DNA from: Clostridia bacterium
GTDB lineage: Bacteria > Bacillota > Clostridia > Christensenellales > Aristaeellaceae
NCBI GenBank assembly: GCA_017404985.1
Contig: JAFRBK010000009.1
Span: forward strand, 1-64,000
DNA length: 64,000 nt
Reading direction: 5' to 3'
The first letter of the stretch is position 1, and each line of letters begins with the position of its first letter. Below, piece by piece: positions 1,059 through 28,541 of the stretch. The translations under genes were made by a program, and so were the position numbers. A model generated the notes under the pieces. It saw nothing but the letters and a program-made list of their open reading frames with translations. It ran no database searches and was not told where the DNA came from.

Positions 1059-1408
1059 TCCTTCTCCTCCATAATTCGATACAGGCTTTCCTTCAACTTT
1101 GTATTGGCAATAGAACCAGGCACAAAGCACATTTCAATGAATTTCTGCATCTCTTCCCTGTCCGGCGGGATCTTTGGCTGGAACTTATACATTTTCCCCT
1201 CCGGTGCGTCTGTTCTGGCAAAAATGTAATCCATTGATACATCAAACATATCCGCATATTTACGGAAAAGCTCAACCGGCGGCTCTGTTTGTCCATTCTC
1301 ATAGCGATTAATGCTGGACTGTGTTGTGCCCAGCATCTTCGCTAATTTCTCTTGTGATACACCGATTCCTTCCCGCAGATTTCTCAGCCGTTTCCCAATT
1401 TCTTTCAT
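1055..1408 (-). CDS. XRE-family transcriptional regulator
   Basis: A 117-residue protein with an N-terminal helix-turn-helix of the Cro/C1 type: residues 1-60 contain IGVSQEKLAKMLGTTQSSIN and RYENGQTEPP, the usual recognition-helix layout. The tail (about 55 residues) is not a recognised domain. It overlaps the KilA-N gene by four bases and follows the DUF6061-like gene by 30 bases, so the set is one operon read from the promoter at 1773-1801. The position before a KilA-N protein and a recombinase suggests it controls the element; the AT-rich inverted repeat at 1860-1906 is a candidate binding site, unproven. Confidence 0.85.
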   Translation of the reverse strand: MKEIGKRLRNLREGIGVSQEKLAKMLGTTQSSINRYENGQTEPPVELFRKYADMFDVSMDYIFARTDAPEGKMYKFQPKIPPDREEMQKFIEMCFVPGSIANTKLKESLYRIMEEKE

Positions 1409-1438
1409 GATGGCCTTCTTCGTTTCGTACGATAATCC

Positions 1439-1693
1439 TTATCTCAGATCACACAGGCGGGTATAATCCGTTGCAGTTTTCAGAAACAATTCAGGGCTTT
1501 CATCCCACACAAGTTCTGCGTAAGCTTTGGGATCATTATAGATCAGATAATCCAGTTCAGAACGCTGATACATATTATCCGCATAGGCTTTTTCCACTGC
1601 ATCACAATCAATCAAAATTAGATTACACTCTTCAGTCCATGCGTAAACACATCCGGAGTCCATATCAAACTTGGCGAAAACAATTCTATCCAT
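1439..1693 (-). CDS. Small DUF6061-like protein of mobile elements
   Basis: An 84-residue acidic protein beginning MDRIVFAKFDMDSG, with no signal peptide or membrane segment. It resembles the short DUF6061 proteins that accompany XRE regulators and serine recombinases in Clostridia elements; this is from memory of the family, and its function is unknown. It is first in the leftward operon. The start at 1693 has GAAGGAGGGAATCATCGC upstream, a good ribosome site. Codon use matches the neighbouring XRE gene. Confidence 0.7.
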   Translation of the reverse strand: MDRIVFAKFDMDSGCVYAWTEECNLILIDCDAVEKAYADNMYQRSELDYLIYNDPKAYAELVWDESPELFLKTATDYTRLCDLR

Positions 1694-1772
1694 GCGATGA
1701 TTCCCTCCTTCTGACTATCTGTGCAGCATGCAATTACCTTTCCGTGAATTACTTCACCCACGGTTCAAGATT

Positions 1773-1801
1773 ATTATAACCCGTTTTGCGGTTTTTATCA
1801 A
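1773..1801 (-). promoter_or_regulatory. Sigma-A type promoter of the recombinase operon
   Basis: On the minus strand TTGATA (1801-1796) and TATAAT (1778-1773) are separated by exactly 17 bases, about 80 bases upstream of the DUF6061-like start. This is a near-consensus housekeeping promoter for the DUF6061-XRE-KilA-N-recombinase operon. Confidence 0.75.
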
Positions 1802-1859
1802 CTGGATTCTCTGCATGAATTGCGAACCTTTTTCGAGACCTGTCGTATTATAGAAACAT

Positions 1860-1906
1860 ATACTATATATTGCATTTGTTAATTATTCAAATACAATATA
1901 TAGTAT
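1860..1906. repeat. AT-rich 19-bp inverted repeat, possible operator
   Basis: The arms at 1860-1878 and 1888-1906 (ATACTATATATTG core) are complementary at 18 of 19 positions around a 9-base loop. It lies 60-100 bases upstream of the operon promoter. It is too AT-rich for a good terminator and lacks a T-run; an operator for one of the XRE regulators or a recombination site are both possible. The rest of the gap 1694-2073 holds only the promoter and no further gene. Confidence 0.6.
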
Positions 1907-2073
1907 GTTAAATTGATCATTTTGATTCTAAAGGCCGGGAAAACCTTCGTGCGGGCAAATCGTCGCGTTCGGTATCATCAGAAGCTCTCAGAGCGAAATA
2001 TGATCGAAAGTCTATAGAAAACAAGCACAGCTTCATATATCATCCAGATTTGAGGCACTTTGCCCGTCTTTAC

Positions 2074-3534
2074 TTACTTTCCTGGCCTGTCATATGCTTC
2101 TCCCACCCCTTTCTGCATTTCCTGCTCGAAGTGGTCATATTCAGCTTCAAACTGAGCCCAGAGTTCCGATGCAGGACCAATATTCCGAAAAGAGTCCGCC
2201 GATGCAGTACAAACAGTTTCAACATTCAATTGAACCAACCAGTTTCCTTCAGGCTTCTCTCCAATAAGCCATACCAAGCATGTAGTATTTGTGAATTCAG
2301 CCAAATCAACATCATTCAGCACATGAACCAGATAATCCCTGTTACAGTCTTCCTCACTATGAGAGGGAAAACCGCAACGCACCGCTTCAATGTCCATACC
2401 GAAGGCAAGATCATCCTCTTCGAACCATCCAACCATGCCGTACTCCTCGCTACCAATCTGAAGCTGCACATAGCCGTTTTCATGCTGTATTATTCTGCCA
2501 GTCAGCCTGGCATAGCAGGTGGCAAGCAGTTTGCCATTTGGACTTTCCCACATAGGTGTACCATCTGATCGCACGCAAGCAAATTCTGAACTGTCGAGCA
2601 AAGGAATGACATCACGAATGTAGTCAGGGTAGGCAGTAAAATCAGCATTCGTCAGTTCCCTTTCAAGAGCAAACTCTCCATAATGGATCACATCATTGCT
2701 ATCATGGAGAGTTAGCGCAAACGCATCGGTAACGAAATCATCGTAAACCCGGTAAAGTGTCCAGTTGCCGTCTCCGATTCCAACGAAGAGCCAGCGACCA
2801 TCTGGTTGACGCGCAAATTGTGGATCACAGGCTCCACAGGAGACAGTAACGATGTTTCCGTTGGATTGCCAACCATTAATAGAAAGCCGTTCTTCCGAGA
2901 AAAAACGTGAACTAATCACGCTACAATACTGTTTGCCATCCCAGTGAGCAATACGGATACATTTTTGTCCTTCCGTGTTTATCACAATGCCTGCAAGGGT
3001 AGTCGGATATGAGTATAAGGCAATCCATGCTTCTCCTTCACTTAACAAAAATGTCGCACATTCAGATGTGATTCTCCACGATAACCTGCACGGTTCAGCG
3101 GTATATCCGTCCTGGTCCCTGTAAAGATCAGTCGGCTCCATATCCAGCAACGTGTTTACGGCCGCCTCTGTCAGCGGAATCGGCGCATAGTCCGTAATCT
3201 CCCACGGCACATGTTCCCCCTTCCGTAGCGAATTGACTATAACAGACAGCTTTTTCTGATAAAGGGTGCTGTCCTTCACTTGCATTAGGAGAATATCAAT
3301 CCAGCAAGCAGTCTCATCATTCCAGCTTCCGGCCCAGTATCGTTCTCTGTTAACGAGATACCAATCCGGAAAATCCACTTTGGAAATAGCAATTAGATCA
3401 TCTTCGGAAATATCGTAGTCTTTTTGTGGGTAGTCATAGTCTGCCCATCCGCTCAACGGTATTAGGCAGAAGATTGTTAACAGTACAACAATCAGCAGAA
3501 TCCCTCTTCGAGAAGCATTTCTCCTGTTCTTCAT
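2074..3534 (-). CDS. Secreted protein of unknown function with SH3-like segment
   Basis: A 486-residue protein starting MKNRRNASRRG followed by a hydrophobic stretch (about residues 11-28) ending GWADYDY, a classical signal peptide. The start at 3534 has AGAAGGAGCC upstream; a longer frame exists but lacks a ribosome site. Residues about 315-375 (GTPMWESPNGKLLATCYARL, then VGWFEEDDL) resemble a bacterial SH3-like domain, which often binds cell wall. Several Cys are scattered through the protein. No enzyme motif is recognised. It is cargo of the mobilizable element and lies next to oriT; a surface role is inferred from secretion only. Confidence 0.7.
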   Translation of the reverse strand: MKNRRNASRRGILLIVVLLTIFCLIPLSGWADYDYPQKDYDISEDDLIAISKVDFPDWYLVNRERYWAGSWNDETACWIDILLMQVKDSTLYQKKLSVIVNSLRKGEHVPWEITDYAPIPLTEAAVNTLLDMEPTDLYRDQDGYTAEPCRLSWRITSECATFLLSEGEAWIALYSYPTTLAGIVINTEGQKCIRIAHWDGKQYCSVISSRFFSEERLSINGWQSNGNIVTVSCGACDPQFARQPDGRWLFVGIGDGNWTLYRVYDDFVTDAFALTLHDSNDVIHYGEFALERELTNADFTAYPDYIRDVIPLLDSSEFACVRSDGTPMWESPNGKLLATCYARLTGRIIQHENGYVQLQIGSEEYGMVGWFEEDDLAFGMDIEAVRCGFPSHSEEDCNRDYLVHVLNDVDLAEFTNTTCLVWLIGEKPEGNWLVQLNVETVCTASADSFRNIGPASELWAQFEAEYDHFEQEMQKGVGEAYDRPGK

Positions 3535-3641
3535 GCCTATGGCTCCTTCTGTTCTGATGCAGATTGATGCAGCTGCATCAAAATGATGCATACACCAAAT
3601 GACTGCAATCACTTTCGGTAAAAATCGTTCCACCGTCGTCC

Positions 3642-3701
3642 TGATGACACCGAAATAACAATAATGCTTTCATCATGATCAGCACTTTGCCGGTGTCATC
3701 A
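3642..3701. repeat. 11-bp inverted repeat upstream of secreted-protein gene
   Basis: TGATGACACCG at 3642-3652 is perfectly repeated in inverted form at 3691-3701, with 38 bases between. The same stretch holds repeated ATGATCATG motifs up to 3760. It could be an operator for the gene starting at 3534 or the outermost structure of the oriT region. Confidence 0.5.
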
Positions 3702-3770
3702 TCTGGCATTCGATCATAATGATCATGTGCCCAGTCACATTTTACCATGATCATGTGGAGGATGTCAGTA

Positions 3771-3868
3771 CTGAACTTTGACAAAAAACCGGATAGGTTT
3801 TTCTGTCAAAGTTCAGAAAAGCAGAACGGGATGTGCCGCCGGAGTTGGCACATTCTGTTTCTGCTTTT
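3771..3868. repeat. Two long adjacent hairpins at the left end of the oriT region
   Basis: Hairpin 1: CTGAACTTTGACA (3771-3783) pairs perfectly with 3804-3816, with a further AAAACC/GGTTTT inner stem. Hairpin 2: AAAAGCAGAA (3817-3826) pairs with 3859-3868, with an inner ATGTGCC/GGCACAT stem. The two abut with no spacer. They are not followed by typical terminator T-runs and no gene ends into them, so a structural role in transfer or replication is more likely than termination. Confidence 0.7.
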
Positions 3869-3878
3869 GGGGTAGATT

Positions 3879-4014
3879 CCAAAGGAGGGCGAACGCCTTC
3901 CTTTGGCGCAGGGTCATCCAATAGGGAGCGCGCAGCATCCCTGTTGGCAGGGGAATCCAAAGGGGACAGCGTCCCCTTGGCGGGAAGAATCCAAAGAAAC
4001 CGGAGGTTTCGTGG
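3879..4014. repeat. Tandem array of four CCAA...TTGG hairpins with covarying stems
   Basis: Four hairpins follow one another at 3879-3906, 3918-3947, 3957-3980 and 3991-4014. Each opens with CCAA after an (A/C)AT(T)-like spacer and closes with (T)TGG. The inner stems differ in sequence but keep pairing: GGAGGGC/GCCTTCC, GGGAGC/GCATCCC, GGGGAC/GTCCCC, GAAACC/GGTTTC. Compensatory change of this kind implies that the folded form, single-stranded DNA or RNA, is what is selected. The array ends directly at the oriT. Similar palindromes occur between genes of gut Clostridia in my recollection, but their function is not known to me. Confidence 0.75.
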
Positions 4015-4062
4015 CACACGGACTTTCGCAGAAAGTCTAGTGTGTTATACCTTTGCGAAAGG
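4013..4062 (+). other. oriT: Origin of transfer (oriT), MobV/pMV158 type
   Basis: GACTTTC-gca-GAAAGTC forms a hairpin (4021-4037), bracketed by CACAC (4015-4019) and GTGTG (4040-4044), and followed by TAGTGTG/TTATAC and a second hairpin CCTTT-gcg-AAAGG (4050-4062). The pMV158 oriT has the same plan: an ACTTT...AAAGT hairpin, then TAGTGTGTTATAC, with the relaxase MobM cutting after GTGTG. The predicted nick is therefore between 4044 and 4045 on the plus strand, in the same orientation as the MobV gene at 6327. In pMV158-like plasmids oriT adjoins mob; here two leftward genes intervene. Confidence 0.85.
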
Positions 4063-4067
4063 GATGG

Positions 4068-4164
4068 CCCGCAAGCGGGTTGATTTGCCCTCCACATCGG
4101 AGATGGCAAGTCAAGCCGATTGCGCTGTGGCTGCGGAGCGGTCACAGCATCAGACGGCAGTCTG
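4068..4164. repeat. Hairpin series on the leading side of oriT
   Basis: Consecutive stems follow the nick site. CCCG/CGGG is at 4068-4079. A long interrupted stem runs from TTGA-TTGCC (4080-4089) to GGCAA-TCAA (4105-4114). GCTGTG/CACAGC spans 4124-4148, with an inner GCTGC/GCGGT-like stem. CAGAC/GTCTG spans 4151-4164. These would be the first folded structures to enter a recipient. The remainder of the gap up to 4335 shows no gene or strong structure. Confidence 0.6.
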
Positions 4165-4335
4165 AGCCATTCCTTTCGCAGAGGTATACAGCGTAACTGC
4201 CCCCGTATCGCCTCTGGAAAATACAGCCTTCTGTGCAAAACGCGAAATAAATAATGCGAGAAAAAGCAGTTCTACTTCTCCCTGATTTTGCAGCCAATCT
4301 GCTCAGAGTCAGTGAGAGAAGAAACGGCAATCATG

Positions 4336-4375
4336 AAAAAGTGGCTGCATTTGTCATCTGGATTGAAGCCACTTT
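4336..4375 (-). terminator. Terminator of the 4415-5065 gene
   Basis: On the minus strand AAAGTGGC (4375-4368) pairs with GCCACTTT (4345-4338) and is followed by a T-run (4340-4336). It lies 40 bases past the stop codon of the leftward secreted-protein gene. Confidence 0.6.
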
Positions 4376-4414
4376 GGCAGCTGCTTTTATACTATAAACC
4401 TATTTCACACAGCC

Positions 4415-5065
4415 TCACTCGAAAATAATTCTCGCATCGTTTAAGTGCGCTCGCTCAAGATATTTTTGTGCTAATTTTTCAGTGTCTCCAGTATAATTAT
4501 TCTCATTCATTTTTTCTATCATTTCATCTGATACGCCGTTCATTCCCTGTGTTCCAATTCCCCAACCTGGTATTAGTTTCTCATCCTTTTGTGGAATGGA
4601 AATTGAATCCACTGTCCATCTTCCTTTACAGGAAACAAAATCAACAGTAAATGCCTGATACATGTTCCATCCCAAGCAAAGATAGTTTTGCATTTTGCTA
4701 TCCGAATATAGCCAATACTCGTCAAAGTTGCACACACAATATACTCTCTTGTGCTGCTGGGAACTGTTCACTTTAAAGATGTAGGGATTGACAATCAAAA
4801 CATATCGGCCTTCAAGAAATAGTTCTTCTCTTTTGGTATCTTCATAATACCAGTTTCTTAACGCCTTCATCAGAAGTAACATGTCGGTATCTTCCATAAG
4901 CCAAGAATCATCAATCGGCGGACAAACTTCTCTTGTACTTCCCTCTGGCAATAATTGTTCAGCATAGTCTTCATTTTGCATATCCTGGGTTTCTGTTTCC
5001 GCTGTCGAGCAAACGTAAAACATGATCGCAATCAAGATAGTCAGTATCAGAATTGCCTTTTTCAT
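4415..5065 (-). CDS. Secreted or membrane-anchored hypothetical protein
   Basis: A 216-residue protein starting MKKAILILTILIAIMFYVC, a signal peptide or N-terminal anchor; the Cys at residue 19 falls where a lipobox Cys would be, but FYVC is a poor lipobox. The rest is acidic and soluble, with no known motif. The start at 5065 is preferred because GGGGAAAT precedes it; an in-frame ATG four codons earlier lies too close to GGAGAA. It follows the XRE gene by 53 bases on the same strand. It is in the predicted leading region of transfer and is transcribed using the transferred strand as template. Confidence 0.65.
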   Translation of the reverse strand: MKKAILILTILIAIMFYVCSTAETETQDMQNEDYAEQLLPEGSTREVCPPIDDSWLMEDTDMLLLMKALRNWYYEDTKREELFLEGRYVLIVNPYIFKVNSSQQHKRVYCVCNFDEYWLYSDSKMQNYLCLGWNMYQAFTVDFVSCKGRWTVDSISIPQKDEKLIPGWGIGTQGMNGVSDEMIEKMNENNYTGDTEKLAQKYLERAHLNDARIIFE

Positions 5066-5117
5066 ATATTTCCCCATTTCTCCGAAAGTGTCAGAACATA
5101 TCTGGCTTGTTATAATG

Positions 5118-5972
5118 CTATCTTTTCTTTTTCCGTTTTCCCTGTCCATGCGGCTGCTGTGTCATTTTGCCCCGTCTGCTTTGAGGGCTTGTCATCTGAG
5201 GAGATTTTCCGAGCAGGTTGATCAGCGTCATCATTTCGTTTTCGGTAACTTTCTCTCTGGGAATCTGAAACGCATCGCAAAACTGTTTCACAAAGAATTC
5301 TTCTCTGCTTTTGCTGTCCATTGCCATCTGAATCTGTTCACGAATGTCTTCTGTTGTGGGTATACTCCCTTCGTCAGCAGTCATGGAATCTGTTTTGTGT
5401 GCTTCCCGGATATCATGCACGATCGCGTCCAGATCTTCATGCATAACATGCCCAAAGAAGCTTTCTTCATCCAGCTGCAGAGCCAGTTCCATTGTACGCA
5501 AATGCAAATCATTCTCATCGGGATTATAACGGGCGATTACTTCCTGGCGCGTTGCGTCCAGCATGTTATTCATGCTTTTAACCCGCATTTCCGCAATGCG
5601 ATCCACAACGATTTCCATATCAGTCATCAGCCGGGGGAAACCATTATGCGTGATCATTTCGCTCAGAAGCCGATGATTGAATTTGCCTTTTCGAAGCGTA
5701 TCCAGCGCTTCATCGCTCAGATGCAGTTCCGCAATATCGCCGCCCTCCCGGGCTTTGTTTTCTGTCAATCCAAGCAGATAATCCGTTGACACGCCGTAAA
5801 ACTCGGACAACTTTACAATGGCAAAGGGACTGATATCCTTAAAGTCATTCGATTCATAATTCCCCAGCGCGGATTTGGACAAGCCGGTTTTCTCCGCCAG
5901 CTGTTCCAGCGTCAGTCCCTGACCATTCCGCAAATCCTTCAGTCTTTCCTGAATCGTCAGTTTTATCTGCAT
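5118..5972 (-). CDS. XRE-family regulator with long helical C-terminus
   Basis: A 284-residue protein. Residues 6-65 form a Cro/C1 helix-turn-helix (LTLEQLAEKTGLSKSALGNY, then FYGVSTDYLLGLTEN). About 180 residues of charged helical sequence follow, and the tail is strongly basic (GKRKKKR). GGAGGATTATTCA before the ATG at 5972 is a strong ribosome site. It diverges from the relaxase gene, sharing the 354-base interval 5973-6326, so it probably represses itself and mob. Related long XRE proteins are common beside relaxases in Clostridia elements; the exact regulon is inferred. Confidence 0.8.
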   Translation of the reverse strand: MQIKLTIQERLKDLRNGQGLTLEQLAEKTGLSKSALGNYESNDFKDISPFAIVKLSEFYGVSTDYLLGLTENKAREGGDIAELHLSDEALDTLRKGKFNHRLLSEMITHNGFPRLMTDMEIVVDRIAEMRVKSMNNMLDATRQEVIARYNPDENDLHLRTMELALQLDEESFFGHVMHEDLDAIVHDIREAHKTDSMTADEGSIPTTEDIREQIQMAMDSKSREEFFVKQFCDAFQIPREKVTENEMMTLINLLGKSPQMTSPQSRRGKMTQQPHGQGKRKKKR

Positions 5973-6004
5973 TGAATAATCCTCCGGAGCCTTATTTCAC
6001 CGCT

Positions 6005-6033
6005 ATTGTACCATTTTTCCAAGAGCGTGGAAA
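6005..6033 (-). promoter_or_regulatory. Probable promoter of the XRE gene at 5972
   Basis: On the minus strand TTTCCA (6033-6028) and TACAAT (6010-6005) are 17 bases apart, about 33 bases before the start codon. The remaining interval to 6326 contains a TGCAT/ATGCA hairpin (6112-6125 area) and the mob ribosome site but no other recognisable feature. Confidence 0.5.
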
Positions 6034-6326
6034 GAGGCTCCTTTTATCATGCTTTTCCAACGTCTGGGATATACGCAAAAAGAGCTTTAAAAACAGTAGA
6101 CTTCATAGTGTCCGGTGCATTCCGATGCATCCCGGGCAGGTGAACCTTCCCAGCTGAACAGCCGTCCCGAACCTCTCGAAACCGCGATGATCCCTCCCGC
6201 TTAGGAGTGGAGCGCCCCACTGGGGCCGGTACCGAGCCAACCAAGGTGTCCTGCCGGAGAGAGCAAGGGATACGGCGACCAAGAACCCGGGCAATCAATG
6301 AGAAGCGAAAGGAGGATTGATATAGA

Positions 6327-7307
6327 TTGAAAGCCCAGTTCGGAATCATGAGATTCCAAAAGTATAAGGGGCCCGCGATCAGCAGTATCGAGGCCCACAA
6401 CGAGCGGAAGAAGGAGAAGTACGCCAGCAATCCGGATGTGGATACCAGTCGGAGTCATCTGAACTTCCATCTGGTCACTCCGAATGGACGCTACAGGGCA
6501 GAAGCGGAAAGGCAAATCGCGGAAGCAGAGTGCCGGACCCGCACTGACAGCATCAGGCTGGTGGAAACCCTGTTTACCGGAAGTCCCGAATTCTTTAGAG
6601 GGAAAACCGATAAACAGATCCGCGCGTATTTCGAGCATGTGCTCGTTTTCCTGAAAAAGCACATCCGTCCGGAAACCATCGTTTCCGCGGTCGTGCATAT
6701 GGATGAGAAGACGCCGCACATGCATGTCTGCTTCGTCCCGCTGACCAAGGACAACCGGCTTTGCGCCAAAGAGATCATCGGGAACAAGAAGCGGCTGATC
6801 CAGTGGCAGGATGATTTCTGGAAGCATATCGTCCAGAAGTATCCGGAACTGGAACGTGGCGAAAGCGCCAGTAAAACCGGCCGGGATCATGTCCCGCCCC
6901 GCGTTCTCAAGGAAATGGTTCGGTTGGAAAAGAAACGCGGGAAGATTGAGGAAACGCTGGAAAGCGTCAACCTTCTCAACGGGAAAGCCAAGGCCCAGGA
7001 AGTCAGTGAGATGCTGGACGGCTACATCCCCGGGGTAGAAAAGATGGCGACTCAGCTGAAAAAGTACAAGAGTGCCTTTACAGACACCAAGGCTGAGAAC
7101 GAATCGCTCCGTGCTGAGAATGAGGAGCTGAAATCCCAGTTGGATGACGAGCATCGCGTCTCGATTGATGAAGAGATCGAGAATCTGCGGATTCGGGATG
7201 AGCACAAGAAAATGAAATCCGTGCTTGACCGGATTCCGAAGGAAATTCTCGAACAGTACATCCCTTCCAGGAACAGGACGCCCAGAAGGGATCGGGAAGG
7301 CAGGTGA
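6327..7307 (+). CDS. MobV-family relaxase (Mob_Pre)
   Basis: A 326-residue relaxase that should nick oriT and pilot the strand into a recipient using a helper conjugation system. The N-terminus matches pMV158 MobM: IMRFQKYKG, then AHNER, where His24 aligns with the MobM catalytic His22, then SRSHLNFHL. The metal-binding motif HMDEKTPHMH lies at about residues 131-140. Residues 230-300 form a coiled coil. The length is within the family range, although many MobV proteins are longer. The start is a TTG at 6327 with GGAGG eleven bases upstream; the first ATG (6348) would cut the conserved N-terminus. The gene is followed five bases later by a 66-residue ORF. Confidence 0.93.
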   Translation: MKAQFGIMRFQKYKGPAISSIEAHNERKKEKYASNPDVDTSRSHLNFHLVTPNGRYRAEAERQIAEAECRTRTDSIRLVETLFTGSPEFFRGKTDKQIRAYFEHVLVFLKKHIRPETIVSAVVHMDEKTPHMHVCFVPLTKDNRLCAKEIIGNKKRLIQWQDDFWKHIVQKYPELERGESASKTGRDHVPPRVLKEMVRLEKKRGKIEETLESVNLLNGKAKAQEVSEMLDGYIPGVEKMATQLKKYKSAFTDTKAENESLRAENEELKSQLDDEHRVSIDEEIENLRIRDEHKKMKSVLDRIPKEILEQYIPSRNRTPRRDREGR

Positions 7308-7311
7308 TGAT

Positions 7312-7512
7312 ATGGCGCGGAAAAAGAAACCTGTCAACAAGTCCCCTTATCCGGATCACGTGATTGAGACCATTGCCCGCTGTCTGTGGCCGGATATTCA
7401 GGCCTTCTTCGAAAGTGAAGAAGGGCAGCGGGAATTTGCCAAGTGGAAAGCCGAACAGGCTGACCAGGAGGCAGGCGATCCGGATAAACCGACCGGGTAT
7501 AAAGCCGCCTGA
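7312..7512 (+). CDS. Small conserved mobilization-element protein
   Basis: A 66-residue hydrophilic protein beginning MARKKKPVNKSPYPDHVIE, basic at the N-terminus and acidic toward the end. Its ATG lies four bases past the relaxase stop, with GGCAGGTGATGAT upstream, so it is co-translated with mob. Small proteins of this type often follow relaxase genes in mobilizable elements; I do not recognise a defined family and assign no function. A strong terminator follows at once, so this is the last gene of the mob operon. Confidence 0.65.
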   Translation: MARKKKPVNKSPYPDHVIETIARCLWPDIQAFFESEEGQREFAKWKAEQADQEAGDPDKPTGYKAA

Positions 7513-7517
7513 TAGTT

Positions 7518-7560
7518 GCAGGGTGTCACCGATCATGGTGACACCCTGCCTTTTAATTTT
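7518..7560 (+). terminator. Rho-independent terminator of the mob operon
   Basis: GCAGGGTGTCACC (7518-7530) pairs perfectly with 7537-7549 around a six-base loop, followed by CTTTTAATTTT. It lies six bases past the last mob-operon stop codon. Confidence 0.9.
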
Positions 7561-7615
7561 CTCTTGGGCTTTCTTCCGCGGGCAGCTTTTATCTGCTGCT
7601 CTGTGAAGAAAAAGA

Positions 7616-7660
7616 ATAATCCGAACCCTTCTCCGATCTGGAAAAATTGGTTCGGATTAT
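7616..7660 (-). terminator. 12-bp inverted repeat, probable terminator of the surface-protein gene
   Basis: ATAATCCGAACC (7616-7627) is perfectly complementary to 7649-7660. Read leftward it is followed by TCTTTTTCTTC (7615-7605), so it can end transcription of the giant gene that stops at 7742. Its 21-base loop is long for a terminator. It also lies beside the tRNA-Val fragment and could instead be an element-end structure. Confidence 0.6.
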
Positions 7661-7669
7661 ACGTGTTTG

Positions 7670-7704
7670 GTGGTGACAGTTGGACTCGAACCAACGACCC
7701 CATC
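7670..7704 (-). other. Displaced tRNA-Val 3' end (attachment-site-like direct repeat)
   Basis: These 35 bases are identical to 28468-28502, which is the 3' part of the intact tRNA-Val(CAC) plus one flanking base, in the same orientation. Identity ends sharply on both sides. It covers the T arm and acceptor strand but no 5' half, so it cannot be a functional tRNA. This is what a tRNA-targeting element leaves at its far end, with the region 7705-28467 as the inserted block. Confidence 0.8.
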
Positions 7705-7741
7705 CGCTGGTACTGTCCATCGTTTTTGCGCAAATTGCTTC

Positions 7742-10700
7742 TTATTCCACCGGAACGAAGATGCAGTTGTGGTTCAGGAGACTGCTGCACCAGGCTTCCG
7801 CGCTGCTGCCCGGGGCGCCGTAGATGTACACCGTGCCGCAGCCGTCGAAGACTTCTTCGCCCAGCTCGCAACCCGCGGGAATGCGGATCTGGGTCAGGCT
7901 GCGGCAGTTCCGGAAGGCATAGTCGCCGAGGCTGCGGCAGGAGGCGGGAACGTCCACGACGCTTGCCGAGATGCCCTCAAAGGCTTCCATTTCCACCGCG
8001 GTCAGGCTGGCCGGCAGGGTGAAGTCCGGGGTGCCAAAGGCCGGCGGAAGGACCGTCACCGAAGCCTCGCGGGAGGCGGTGCTCGCGGCGCCGTTCCCCA
8101 CCCGGCGCGTCACAAGGCAGTAATACTGATATTCGCCGGCATCCGTATTCTCAGGGATGGTATAGGCGCTTTGCCGGCCGTCGGCGAGGGGGAGTTTCCA
8201 GCTGCCTTCCGTGCGATACCACTGGTATTCCAGACCGTCCTGGTTTTCGTCGGTCACCGTCACGGTCAGGGTTCTGCTTTCCGCGCTGCCCTCCCCTTTG
8301 GTCCAGGAGGTATCGGCCGGGGCGTTTTCCGCCAGGGACGGCAGGGGAATCTCCTCCCACGCGGCGGCGAGGGTCATATCCTGCGTGACAACGGCGCCGA
8401 AATCCCACGGGGTATCCTCCAGGTACCAGCCCTGGAAGGCATAGCCGTCCTTCATCCGGGGACCCGGATTGGCGATGGGGCAGTTGGATTCATAGGTCCG
8501 GGTGAAGAGGGTGCGATCCCCGTCCACGAAGGTCACCGAGACCGTCTCGGGAACCACGGGCCTGACCCCGATCACCACGTGGGCGGCCTCCGCGCCGGAG
8601 GCGTCAGAGACGGTGGGATCGCCGTTCTGGAAGGGGCTGTTTTCCGGCGCGGTGACGGCGTGGGTCGGGGGAAGGTAAATGCCGCCCTCCGCGAGGATTG
8701 CCCTGCCGCCCTCCGCAGTGGCCGCCACGTCCCAGGTGCCCGCGCTCATGTTGACGCTGCCCTGCATTTCCAGGCCCGCGCGGGCGGCGCTGATCCCGAC
8801 GTCGCCGCCGACGGTCAGATCTCCGCCAGCCCACAGGCCGTAGCCGGTTTCACTGGTGTTTGTGCCGGTGACGCTTCCGTCCACGCTGAGGCCGGCCGCG
8901 GCCTTGATCAGGGCTTCTCCCTGCACCGTCAGGTCCACATCGCCGCCGACGCTGACGGAACCGTTTTCCGCCACCAGGCCGCTGCCGCCGCAGGTACCGG
9001 TGAGGCTGCCGGTGAGCCGGACCGAGCCCTCCGCGCGGATCGCCGTGGACGAGACATTCGCTTCGACATCGCCGCGGATTTCCAGGCTGGCGCCGTTCAG
9101 CGCGACCGCGCCGAAGGCGGCGTCCGTGCCGGTGAGACGGAGCCCGCCCTGCGGGGCGACGATTGTCAGATTCTCCTCGGCGGCGATCAGCATGCCGCCA
9201 TAGGTGCCCGCGAAGGTCGGATTATTGTGGAAGGTCAGCGTATGGCTGGCTCTGTCATAGGAAACTGCGCCGTCGCCCAGAACATCGGCGGCGTTCGCGT
9301 CGGACACCTGCGTGCCGCCTACCCACAGCGGATAGGGGACCGCCCGGCCGATCTCCGCCTTCATCACCGGATTGCCGTCGGCATCCAGGACTTTGTGGCT
9401 TTCGCTGTCGTAACGACCGCCCTCGGGAAGGATGAATTTGTTGCCATCCAGATCCATGCTGACGATGATTCCGAGGGGCGTCGTCCCCTCCGCCGGATCA
9501 CACTCCGCGGTGAGGCTGCTGTCGCCTGATACCTGGAGGGAATCGGCATATACACCGATCTGCGTCGCCGCCGCGCTGACGCTGCTGCCCGAGATATTCA
9601 GCTGATCGTGAGTGAAAAGGCCGTACACTTCGCCCTGCGCGGTGACCTGGGAGCCGCTGATGGAGAGGGGGCCGCTGAGCGCAAAAAGGCCGCCGTCCCG
9701 GCCCTTCGCCGTCAGCGCGGAACCGCCCTGGATCGAGAGCCCGCGCTCCGAGAAGACGCCGTACTTTGCCCCGGCGTCGATGACGCTGTTCCCCGATACG
9801 CGGATGGTCAGATCCAGATTCTCCCCGGCATAAATCCCTGCCGTGGCGGCCGTCCCACCCGAGGTAAAAGCATGCTTTGAGAGGATTCGGGCGCCCTTCA
9901 GGGTCAGGGTGCCGCCGGACTCGTTTCCATCATAGGCGGCGGTGCCGTCCCTCAGAATATCCTCCTGGTTTGCGACCGTGACCTGGGTGCTGCCCACCCA
10001 CAGGGGATAGGGCTGCGACCAGGACGCGACCGCGATGACGGAATCCGCGTCCACAGAAATCACATCCCCGGCGGGATGCAGCTGACCGGAGATTTCCCAT
10101 CCGGCGAAGACCAGGCCTTCCGGCGGGGTGAAGGCACATTCCGGCAGCTCGAAGCTGCTGCCCGGGGAAACTCGGACAAAATTCATCGTGCCGCTGCCTT
10201 CGCCGGCCTCAAACGAAACGGTATTCATGTCGCTGCCGTAGCCGCAGACCGTGCACCGGTGGTTTTCATCCCATGTATGCGCCTCCAGAGCCAGCGCCGT
10301 GGCGCAATATTTGCAGGAGCGCAGGTGGTTATCCTCGGAAGAGGTGTAGACATTGTCCGGATGACTGCAGGGGGAGATCCGGACTTTGCCATAATTCTGA
10401 CAGTACGCCACCCGGTTGTCGGCTTCGATGAACACCGTGCCCCCCTGCTCCGCCTGGTTTTCCCCCTGCACCATCATGTGGTCCCCGAGGTTCAAATTAC
10501 CCGTATGCCAGTCGGAGATGGTGCTGGAGTAGCTGCCGGGGCCGATGGCGTGATAATCCGCTTCGATGGTGACGTTGGCGGTTCCGCTGATTTCCACGTC
10601 GTCGCAGCCACTGCCTCCCCAGCCGGTGATGTTCTCCGCGCCGCCGCCGATCCCCGCCGCGCAATAGCCGCCGACGGCCGTCACATTGCCGCCGGTGATT

Positions 10701-24058: not shown

Positions 24059-25708
24059 TTATGCCCCAGCAACGTACCAGGTCTTGGACTCACTGATCTG
24101 AATGTTGGCAGCCCGGAAGGCCTCTGCCATCTTCTCCTGCGTGAAGAAGAACTGGATGTGGATCTTGTAATCCTTCTCAATGGTGATCCTTTCGATGATT
24201 TTCGCAAGGATCATCTTTTTCTGTTCAACATCCACCTGATCGAATTCCGCTGCCCACGCGGTAATGTTGCTGAACTGTTCGCACATGCTCTGAAGCTTGC
24301 TCTGTTCAATTTCCTTCTCCTGCCTGCAGGCGAGAAGCTGGCTTTCCGCTTCCTGAAGCGCGGCGCTGTTTTCCTGGAGCAGGCTCTTCAGCAGATCTGT
24401 ATCGAAGGTGCTGTTGCCGGTAACGGAGTCCACGACCTCCTGTCGCAGATGGGACTGCTGGTTTTGAAGCTTATCGACCTTCGCCTGCAGTTCCCGGATA
24501 CGCTGATCGTGCTGGTTCCTGATCTGCCTGCGCACCTGTTCCTTCCAGACCGATTCTGCTGTTGCGGTGAATGAAGCAAAGTAAGCCTTGACGATCGTGA
24601 GGACCGTTTCTTCAATGCGACCGGCAGAATAGCTGTACTGTTCATTCGGGGAACGCCGCGCTTTGATGGACCCTCTGTAGCAGCGATAAACCGGATAGTA
24701 GATTGTTCCGTCCGAACTCTTCTTCATGTTGTAGCAGCCAACCAGCTTCCCGCCGCAGGCCTTGCAGTAAAGCAGCCCGCAGAGCAGTTTGGCGCTGTAC
24801 TGGGACTTTTCCCATCGCGATTCCTCATAGTCGCCGTTCTCCTTTTTCGTCAGCCGTTCCTTTCGGGGAATCCGGTTCTGCATGGTGTAATGGACAAAGG
24901 AGAATTCTTTGTCAGAAACGATCCGCAGGCTTTCATTGGGTTCGGACTGAATATCATTCATATGGAGGCGTCCGATGTAGGTGGGATTCTTCACCATGCC
25001 CCGGATCGTTTGAGCTGTCCAAACCTTTCCCGAGTTTGGATACTTCTCGTTGACCGCGTTGGCCACGCGCAGCGATCCCATGCCTTCTTCACCGATCATG
25101 TGGAAAATGTCCTGAACGATGACTGCTTGCTCCGGATCAATCTCCAGGTCATACAACTGACGGTTCTTTTTCCCCATCCGCCCATTGTGAACCAGTCGGT
25201 ATCCGAAGGGCACCTTCCCGCCGCGCCAGACTCCGTCCTCGGTCATCTGGCTGTGGGCTGCTTTCACGCGGAGGGACGTCTTTTCGGATTCGCCGCCCGC
25301 CATCCAGTAGCGGATGTAGTTCATCAGCTTGTCGCCCCGGTTGTCGATGCGCTGCTGACCTTCCCGGGTACTCCAGACCTCAATGCCGTGGTTCACGAAC
25401 CACTCCACCAGAAACGGAGTTTCATCTTCCCGGCGGCCCAGCCGGTCAAACATGAAGACCAGCAGAACATCGAATTCGTCTCGCTCTGCCATCTGGCGGA
25501 TTTCCTGAATGGCATCACGCTTGCTGGCGGATACTTTGAATCCGGACACGCCTTTTTCCAGCTTCTCACCGACGAATTCCCATTCAGGCATCCGGCTGAT
25601 GAAGTCCATGCATTCCCGGCGCTGAACAGGGATATCGTCTTCCGCGTTAACCTGCTGTTTCGTGGAAACCCTGTACAGACACAATACGCGCTTTTTCACG
25701 CTCTGCAC
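24059..25708 (-). CDS. Large serine recombinase (integrase)
   Basis: A 549-residue recombinase with the standard three-part plan. The catalytic domain at residues 5-150 has YRVSTKQQ with nucleophile Ser15, then FMFDRLGRRED and MNYIRYWMAGGESEKTS. The recombinase domain follows (GGKVPFGYRLV to NPTYIGRLH). A zinc ribbon has CGLLYCKACGGKLVGC plus a later Cys, and a coiled coil spans about 400-480. The length is normal and no damage is visible. It catalyses site-specific integration and excision. Its start overlaps a 70-residue gene by 13 bases. It probably moves part of the 17-28 kb block, although the 35-bp tRNA repeat would be long for a serine-integrase core. Confidence 0.93.
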   Translation of the reverse strand: MQSVKKRVLCLYRVSTKQQVNAEDDIPVQRRECMDFISRMPEWEFVGEKLEKGVSGFKVSASKRDAIQEIRQMAERDEFDVLLVFMFDRLGRREDETPFLVEWFVNHGIEVWSTREGQQRIDNRGDKLMNYIRYWMAGGESEKTSLRVKAAHSQMTEDGVWRGGKVPFGYRLVHNGRMGKKNRQLYDLEIDPEQAVIVQDIFHMIGEEGMGSLRVANAVNEKYPNSGKVWTAQTIRGMVKNPTYIGRLHMNDIQSEPNESLRIVSDKEFSFVHYTMQNRIPRKERLTKKENGDYEESRWEKSQYSAKLLCGLLYCKACGGKLVGCYNMKKSSDGTIYYPVYRCYRGSIKARRSPNEQYSYSAGRIEETVLTIVKAYFASFTATAESVWKEQVRRQIRNQHDQRIRELQAKVDKLQNQQSHLRQEVVDSVTGNSTFDTDLLKSLLQENSAALQEAESQLLACRQEKEIEQSKLQSMCEQFSNITAWAAEFDQVDVEQKKMILAKIIERITIEKDYKIHIQFFFTQEKMAEAFRAANIQISESKTWYVAGA

Positions 25709-28466: not shown

Positions 28467-28468
28467 AG

Positions 28469-28541
28469 TGGTGACAGTTGGACTCGAACCAACGACCCCA
28501 TCGATGTGAACGATGTGCTCTACCGACTGAGCCATGCCACC
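28469..28541 (-). tRNA. tRNA-Val (anticodon CAC)
   Basis: The 73 bases fold completely. The acceptor stem is GGTGGCA/TGTCACC, the D arm GCTC/GAGC, the anticodon stem CATCG/CGATG with loop TTCACAT (anticodon CAC, codon GUG), and the T stem GTTGG/CCAAC with loop TTCGAGT. The discriminator is A and CCA is not encoded. It is read from a consensus promoter about 300 bases upstream, across two tRNA-like 5' remnants, and ends at a strong terminator. Its 3' 34 bases recur at 7671-7704, marking it as an integration site. Confidence 0.97.

Follow-up and report, generated by a model that had tools for sequence, protein, structure and literature searches.

What is so much DNA structure doing at an origin of transfer? 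In a stretch of 64,000 nucleotides from a Clostridia bacterium (contig JAFRBK010000009.1, positions 1 to 64,000; referred to below as the window), the predicted oriT of a MobV element is surrounded by about 400 bp of hairpins. These may belong to the oriT itself, may have accumulated beside it, or may act in an RNA, and the molecule on which they fold could be donor duplex DNA, the transferred strand (T-strand) or a transcript. To our knowledge, the recognition, protection and priming of incoming conjugative ssDNA in Firmicutes recipients are poorly known.

A folded region in register with a pMV158-like nick

The relaxase gene of the element was identified by profile search (Mob_Pre, PF01076, E = 8.7e-48; 326 aa). 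By analogy with the pMV158 sequence 5'-TGTG/TTATAC-3', the nick is predicted at TAGTGTG^TTATACC, in the context CTAGTGTG^TTATACC at 4044^4045, which corrects its placement in the initial annotation of this DNA. The features of the region are listed below. Bit scores of modules refer to a covariance model, R1, that was built partly from modules of the window.

3771–3816, + strand: hairpin H1, 18-nt arms, 94% complementary; upstream border (inverted repeat, fold)
3817–3868, + strand: hairpin H2, terminator-like on the + strand (inverted repeats, fold, terminator-like scan)
3879–3906, + strand: module of type D, CCAAAGGAG..CCTTTGG (R1 match 3873–3910, 27.8 bits)
3918–3947, + strand: module of type B, CCAATAGGG..CCCTGTTGG (R1 match 3912–3950, 30.3 bits)
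3957–3980, + strand: module of type C, CCAAAGGGGAC AGC GTCCCCTTGG (R1 match 3951–3984, 42.6 bits)
3991–4014, + strand: module of type A, CCAAAGAAACCGGAGGTTTCGTGG, flush with the oriT hairpin (R1 match 3985–4018, 29.1 bits)
4015–4044, + strand: oriT hairpin, CACAC..GTGTG, ending at the nick; layout as IR3 of pMV158 in the accessible text of PMC5863519
4044–4045, + (transferred) strand: predicted nick
4046–4068, + strand: leader closing stem, 5' strand, from nick+2 (fold, stem search)
4071–4123, + strand: leader arm 1 (folds, A4 alignment)
4124–4148, + strand: leader arm 2 (folds, A4 alignment)
4150–4165, + strand: leader arm 3 (folds, A4 alignment)
4166–4188, + strand: leader closing stem, 3' strand (..CCTTTCGCAGAGGTATA) (fold, stem search)
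5118–5972, − strand: HTH regulator gene, between oriT and mobV and transcribed toward oriT
6327–7307, + strand: MobV relaxase gene

The first seven entries are hairpins that follow one another in series on the + strand. Hairpins 1 and 2 directly adjoin each other, as do the last module and the oriT hairpin; the other spacers measure 9–11 nt. Folded as DNA, the + strand of 3760–4200 reaches −132.8 kcal/mol against a mean of −65.5 for dinucleotide-shuffled sequences (z = −13.6; none of 100 shuffles as good). The corresponding z values are −13.1 for the − strand and −15.5 for RNA. As a whole, 3760–4200 is present in one copy in its own genome.

The description of a hairpin-rich stretch of about 400 bp around a MobV oriT, given by the initial annotation, is thereby confirmed for DNA and RNA folding. 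Two outcomes had been named beforehand that would have spoken against it: no excess of folding energy over dinucleotide-shuffled sequence, and no conservation of the hairpins in related elements. The excess is present, and the hairpins are conserved, with covariation, among the loci described below. The count of about eleven stem-loops stands in part: there are ten hairpins, and the remaining structure is one long closing stem. The structured stretch extends to 4188 instead of 4164, and the stem-loops downstream of the nick, described as separate units, are three arms of one domain, which a 23-bp stem closes. Two features had been overlooked: the downstream stem-loops make up a single nick-anchored domain, and the upstream modules are part of a wider palindrome family.

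With the nick core TAGTGTG^TTATA, an inverted repeat ending at the nick and a MobV (Mob_Pre) gene in cis, the locus resembles an oriT of the pMV158 type. A position beside the mob promoter, as in that type, was not found in the window, where the nick is at 4044 and mobV starts at 6327. This distance of 2.3 kb compares with 0.6–5.6 kb upstream of mobV in 56 relatives.

Relatives and extent of the structure

A search with the MobV protein yielded 331 relatives in genome contigs, the best 80 of which were used together with seven in viral contigs; record titles of the relatives point mostly to gut Clostridia. Within the DNA fetched, the nick motif (at most one mismatch) was present in 56 of these 87 loci. 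It was absent from the fetched DNA of the other 31, of which 24 have less than 5.9 kb of upstream DNA; those lacking it despite at least 5.9 kb are L004, L023, L035, L060, L072, L076 and L077. L098, a contig of the same length as that of L004, carries an oriT further upstream. A DNA search with the array gave matches in 49 of 300 genomes of the family. From 78 motif-bearing loci, 11 were dropped as redundant or too near a contig end. The 67 retained are the window, 49 loci found via the MobV protein and 17 found via array DNA, and the sample therefore favours arrays.

Sliding-window z values from these 67 loci, of which between 51 and 67 contribute at any one position, place the folding excess chiefly between about −320 and +200 of the nick. 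A weaker rise is seen at −520 to −400, and the rest of −1000 to +1040 is background. When the window is compared with L003 and L083, the block 3869–4222 is 94% identical and the mobV block 86%; the genes between the two blocks do not align.

The upstream array consists of modules of one family

R1 was built from 38 modules, one of 39 having been left out as a different hairpin. The array modules are members of one family, arranged head-to-tail, with CCAA..TTGG or TCAGA..TTTGA as closing sequences. Their stems fall into at least five types (A–E, labels coined here), in a number and order that vary among loci; five loci have no typed module and the others one to four. Covariation within the modules exceeds that of shuffled controls both in a MAFFT alignment (A1; 42 double-change cells against 15.9) and in an alignment fitted to the model (A2; 173 against 54).

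About 1 Mb of MobV loci and three nick-pattern contigs were searched with R1. Among 143 matches with E up to 1, 135 lie at most 280 bases upstream of the nick and on the nick strand; the remaining eight are palindromes matched on both strands in L039, L051, L055 and L062. The flush junction TGG/C[AG]CAC between the last module and the oriT hairpin is found in 64 of 67 loci (exceptions L017, L105 and L108), and a typed module has its 3' end at −29 to −32 of the nick in 68 of 78 loci. The abutting hairpin is under −3 kcal/mol in 73 of 77 loci and under −5 in 56 of 77, compared with 14 of 275 control positions under −5.

Some variation was observed at this side of the nick. By eye, L105 and L108 appear to have an insert of about 90 bp in the left arm of the oriT hairpin (about −150 to −20 of the nick) and a TTGGCACACGAC copy further upstream of it. 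A hairpin related to H2 precedes the array in L006, as judged from sequence and alignment. Just upstream of the array, short palindromes are dense in the window (3540–3760) and in L083 (4020–4160), with the repeats TGATGCAT, ATGATCAT and TGACACCGG. These are possibly regulator sites or the left end of the element.

Modules also occur outside arrays, which ties the oriT hairpins to a family of dispersed palindromes. The module model has matches in 54 of 200 family genomes, with up to 28 places per genome among the matches listed. Thirty loci were fetched. The nick motif (at most one mismatch) is present in 15 of them, and L136 has a variant of it. In others, among them L147 and L167, modules of the same stem types and with the same G-rich linkers lie, one to three per locus, away from any nick motif. 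CCAA..TTGG modules off-nick in sister genera were seen in L134, L141, L142, L144, L147, L150, L154, L155, L157, L158 and L161–L180, some of them as tandem copies joined by G-rich linkers. From their sequences, the dispersed modules of sister genera look REP-like.

The array might accordingly consist of REP-like selfish palindromes that have accumulated beside the oriT and are irrelevant to transfer, and the dispersal of very similar modules off-nick, in sister genera and in up to 28 copies per genome among the matches listed, is what such palindromes would show. Several findings make this improbable. All 135 array matches point one way, the proximal hairpin abuts the oriT hairpin even in the 39%-identical Enterococcus faecalis relative, and the domain downstream of the nick would be left unexplained. 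In the window's own genome, the R1 matches at E ≤ 0.01 number four and all belong to the oriT array, and a single weaker one (E = 0.014) lies outside it; many dispersed copies within one genome, as in REP families, are thus a property of some sister genera and not of this genome. A Y1 (RAYT-type) transposase was considered as disperser of the modules and rejected: across 20 genomes its presence does not follow module abundance, it is lacking in five of 11 module-rich genomes, and G091, without a module match, has eight.

In G043, module copies lie within long inverted-repeat elements. These are about 0.8–1.4 kb long and flanked by inverted modules (L170, ~677–1751; L171; L172), and a similar element is present in G031 (L178, ~713–2104). 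They look like elements of the MITE type.

A predicted closed leader domain begins just after the nick

Downstream of the nick, in what we call the leader, the T-strand begins with a closing stem. In the window it has 23 pairs (4046–4068 with 4166–4188), two of which are G.T. For the analysis of all loci, the first 22 nt of the T-strand were paired with +40 to +230, and shuffled partners were searched identically. By this test, 59 of 67 loci have a closing stem with z < −2, and 49 of 67 have one that is matched by none of 60 shuffles. In 60 of the 67 the first paired base is nick+2, and the partner lies between +83 and +217 (in the window, at +144). In 36 distinct pairs of stem strands, 101 cells have changed on both sides against 38 in shuffled controls; this count, like the closure of all 60 leader folds, is biased toward structure because the partner was chosen per locus as the best complement, and the fair control is the z test against shuffled partners. 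Shifting the partner by one column reduces pairing from 86% to about 40%.

The interior of the domain is conserved as well. Of the 60 terminally closed leader folds, 44 have three hairpin loops, 10 have four, five have two and one has one. Three loops are found in 41 of 55 leaders of 130–220 nt, compared with 290 of 1100 with shuffled interiors; the interior alone has a median z of −6.8, with z < −2 in 55 of 55. BLAST places the 60 leaders in 12 classes without links, six of them single sequences. Class A4, to which the window leader belongs (10 sequences), has compensatory double changes at 16 of 46 consensus pairs; in A5, the largest class (25 sequences), they affect 15 of 33. The window and L003 differ in 24 of 354 columns, 11 of them unpaired; the paired differences comprise one double compensation, five one-sided changes that keep the pair and six that break it. 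At the level of predicted folds, the comparison shows a leader that keeps its structure rather than its sequence across twelve classes unlinked by BLAST.

The closing-stem test was also applied to 11 new, dissimilar loci with enough downstream sequence and was passed by seven, L131 and L132 starting at +3; L119 and L120 had been left out as chance-like matches, and with them the result is 7 of 13. The automatic +2 test failed in L017, L019, L043, L044, L052, L105 and L110. A post hoc look in a longer window, which also took in L121 and L156, revealed an AGG[TG]ATA-like partner in five of these seven, not in L017 and L105.

About 10 nt past the leader end, a C-rich motif like CCCCCGT was seen by eye in several classes (L011, L030; window 4200–4206).

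More distant oriTs delimit the architecture. The eight small-plasmid MobV oriTs L203, L204 and L206–L211 (MobV 28–33% identical), not all independent because L208 and L209 share one MobV protein, are without a closing stem (z −1.6 to +1.3), and z of 0 to +180 ranges from −2.1 to +0.9. L200, L201 and L202, the last from E. faecalis (MobV 39–52% identical; L200 and L201 51%, L202 39%), have an abutting module, an IR3-like hairpin and a closing stem with z values of −3.3, −2.2 and −6.5, respectively, together with altered bases on the nick side. Upstream, −200 to −32 is structured in all ten plasmid loci that have 200 bases (z −3.3 to −9.0), including seven classical plasmids (−3.3 to −5.8). Upstream structure is therefore not special; the flush module is. 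That this MobV oriT carries far more conserved structure than the pMV158 type, as initially proposed, is supported.

Other potential outgroups contributed less. The nick motif was not found in the stretches fetched for the C. jejuni relative L199 and for L205, and ten nick-pattern matches in viral contigs were chance-like by eye and not used. A plasmid collection contained no similarity to 3760–4200 at E 1e-5; among phage records, two unannotated human-faecal contigs matched with 17–24% coverage.

Folding favours the transferred strand

When single sequences are folded, the transferred strand gives a more stable structure than the complement does for 58 of 60 leaders (mean −10.9 kcal/mol; shuffled −3.4) and for 58 of 66 arrays (shuffled −1.45); since shuffled leaders and arrays are biased too, composition explains part of the strand difference. 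Of two control stretches, that at +1000 is without significant bias (26 of 64) and that at +600 is biased in the opposite direction (17 of 66). With DNA parameters, the A4, A5 and A6 alignments give 49, 30 and 41 consensus pairs on the transferred strand and 17, 10 and 30 on the complement. With RNA parameters the strand difference is smaller (46, 33 and 44 on the top strand; 40, 17 and 32 on the bottom strand). At pairs common to both strands (DNA parameters), G.T events outnumber A.C events by 13 to 3 (p = 0.02); on modules alone the ratio of 25 to 17 (p = 0.28) is not decisive. Strand-specific folding of the displaced or transferred strand, as is typical of a single-strand origin (sso), is thus seen here.

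The strand bias bears on the possibility that the flanking folds are relaxosome architecture only. They would form cruciforms in the supercoiled DNA of the donor, leave the nick exposed and guide rejoining, with no role in complementary-strand synthesis. The exact register with the nick on both sides is in line with this, as is the hairpin switching at the pMV158 nick on supercoiled DNA, described in the accessible part of PMC5863519. So is the pairing of CCTTTGC within the closing stem: in loci such as L003 this sequence is also the right arm of an IR2-like alternative. However, a symmetric cruciform predicts no strand bias, yet 58 of 60 leaders are biased; the eight plasmid MobV oriTs manage without a leader, and the conserved three-armed interior is unexplained. 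We consider this alternative rather unlikely.

The strand tests fit the T-strand and a top-strand RNA equally, because both have identical sequence. A structured RNA, regulatory or structural, made from the top strand around the oriT would also be consistent with the even stronger RNA folding (z = −15.5), with the excess of G.T (G.U) over A.C on the top strand and with one promoter-like match on the + strand upstream (3693–3720). Between this match and the array, however, lies a terminator-like hairpin (3824–3860), and the oriT hairpin itself is also terminator-like. The domain border coincides with the nick, and in 57 of 65 loci the 900 bases past the leader have their longest ORF on the opposite strand. 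No Rfam family matches at gathering scores, only a tRNA in the window passing, and a permissive search of 3500–4300 gave six sub-threshold matches, the lowest E (0.0073) at about half the gathering score. We give such an RNA a small probability. The proposal of a role on transferred ssDNA, or on RNA of identical sequence, is supported by strand-specific folding together with covariation.

The orientation of these ORFs would suit a third reading: an Frpo-like single-strand promoter from which recipient RNA polymerase transcribes leading-region genes, the T-strand being the template for the longest post-leader ORF in the same 57 of 65 loci. In the accessible text of PMC11541004, Frpo folds ssDNA into a duplex-like promoter. 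The post-leader ORFs, however, read toward the oriT, and their promoter should therefore be beyond them, outside the leader. Promoter-like matches on the bottom strand (11 against 2.8 in shuffled sequence) come from nine loci, seven of one sequence class and two of another, and there is none in the window leader; simple consensus scans found no −35/−10 in a T-strand stem of the Frpo kind. The single-strand promoter of sigma-70 type is unsupported, and we regard it as very improbable.

Borders of the element and neighbouring elements

Comparison with L003, L083 and L004 places the right end of the MobV element near 7660. In the window (7603–7704), this end has the palindrome AATCCGAACC..GGTTCGGATT, which is also found in L003, L083 and L004. 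It is followed by a tRNA-Val 3'-end fragment in the window and, by eye, by an apparent tRNA-Asn 3' end in L004. The left end was not found, and the ORFs scanned between oriT and right end include no integrase. A recombinase gene follows mobV in L016 (serine-recombinase-like, from the ORF) and in L199 and L201 (annotated).

The tRNA-Val 3' fragment (7663–7704) and an intact tRNA-Val gene (28468–28541) on the same strand bracket about 20.8 kb, and a serine recombinase gene (24059–25708) lies inside this stretch. It is likely that 7663–28541 is a second, separate integrated element. L016 of Faecalibacterium prausnitzii (1270–9432) is a larger relative with the oriT at its left. As read from its ORFs, it appears to be an element with sigma-factor-like and HTH genes on the minus strand that also encodes MobV, a serine recombinase, a helicase-like protein and a CHC2-type primase.

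A proposed role for the folded T-strand

Sequence comparison alone points to selection for folding of the T-strand, in a domain aligned exactly with the predicted nick. That the region acts as a T-strand structure at all is highly probable. We put at about 50% the probability that a clade of MobV elements, mostly from gut Clostridia, has here an extended, composite oriT that works as folded ssDNA of the transferred strand. Against this reading speak the varying number of upstream modules and the occurrence of the same modules off-nick in sister genera.

The oriT hairpin ends at the nick and the closing stem starts one base later; the nick is therefore an unpaired hinge at which two helices meet. 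In the donor, these helices would stack and present the hinge to MobV. The closing stem, by taking up CCTTTGC, would occupy the right arm of an alternative IR2-type hairpin and so compete with a hairpin across the nick, a step modelled on the hairpin switch of pMV158 (accessible part of PMC5863519). In the recipient, the leader would enter first, already folded, and would most likely be a structure-read single-strand origin at which synthesis of the complementary strand is primed, comparable to the sso class with three stem-loops in ICEBs1. The array would enter last, marking the 3' end for the rejoining cut.

Of the four roles that the initial annotation named without a preference (priming site, single-strand promoter, nuclease shield, structured RNA), a priming site fits best, and sso-like priming, proposed by analogy, is the function that we tentatively favour. 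The CS-6 motif of ssoA is TAGCGW. It is not enriched in the leaders, and no known sso motif or similarity to plasmid ssos was found (no plasmid match at E 1e-5). A priming site would also not need a stem starting at nick+2, and conjugation of ICEBs1 is unchanged on deleting sso1 alone, according to the accessible text of PMC4595007. A function in nick presentation and termination only is possible but doubtful; protection or loading of ends is unlikely, and the same holds for any other function.

At slightly less than even odds, the leader at the beginning of the T-strand and the flush hairpin array at its end would represent a new class of nick-anchored ssDNA element in a widespread gut MobV group. 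The T-strand itself would then be a folded functional object (second-strand start, cap or relaxase guide) whose structure has been maintained in no fewer than twelve sequence classes. We found no description of this architecture in the literature searched, which covers subscription papers to a limited extent. The region provides a concrete cis-element with clear predictions as to strand, register, arms and modules.

Comparison with known systems

As an integrated element with a MobV relaxase, the element resembles the MobV IMEs Tn4451, Tn6215 and IMESag-rpsI (accessible part of PMC5704250); the comparison covers these two properties, and no recombinase was found inside the window's short element. 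Like REP/BIME palindromes, the modules are short hairpins of one family that are scattered through sister genera as single copies or small clusters. They differ from them in that the copies of the oriT array are one-directional and abut the oriT hairpin, and in that a link to Y1 transposases was not seen in 20 genomes.

The Frpo/ssi elements of F-like plasmids are likewise a folded T-strand in the leading region (accessible text of PMC11541004), whereas the leader described here is without conserved −35/−10 sequences. Closer parallels are found in ICEBs1, where sso1 lies downstream of oriT, three stem-loops matter and structure can replace sequence, as stated in the accessible text of PMC4595007. 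Like sso1 and the ssos of the pBAA1/pTA1060 type covered by the same text, the leader has several stem-loops in about 200 nt and is strand-specific; in contrast to them, it is a closed domain in exact register with the nick, and its priming role is putative.

The pMV158 oriT (MOBV1; MobM) shares the nick core TAGTGTG/TTATAC, the MobV (Mob_Pre) relaxase, an IR1/IR3-type hairpin ending at the nick and an alternative IR2-type pairing across it, as far as described in the accessible part of PMC5863519. The leader is absent from the eight plasmid MobV oriTs compared, a set that does not include pMV158 itself. The pMV158 oriT is short and lies beside the mobM promoters, whereas the oriT described here combines an abutting module array with a leader, at a distance of 2.3 kb between nick and mobV.
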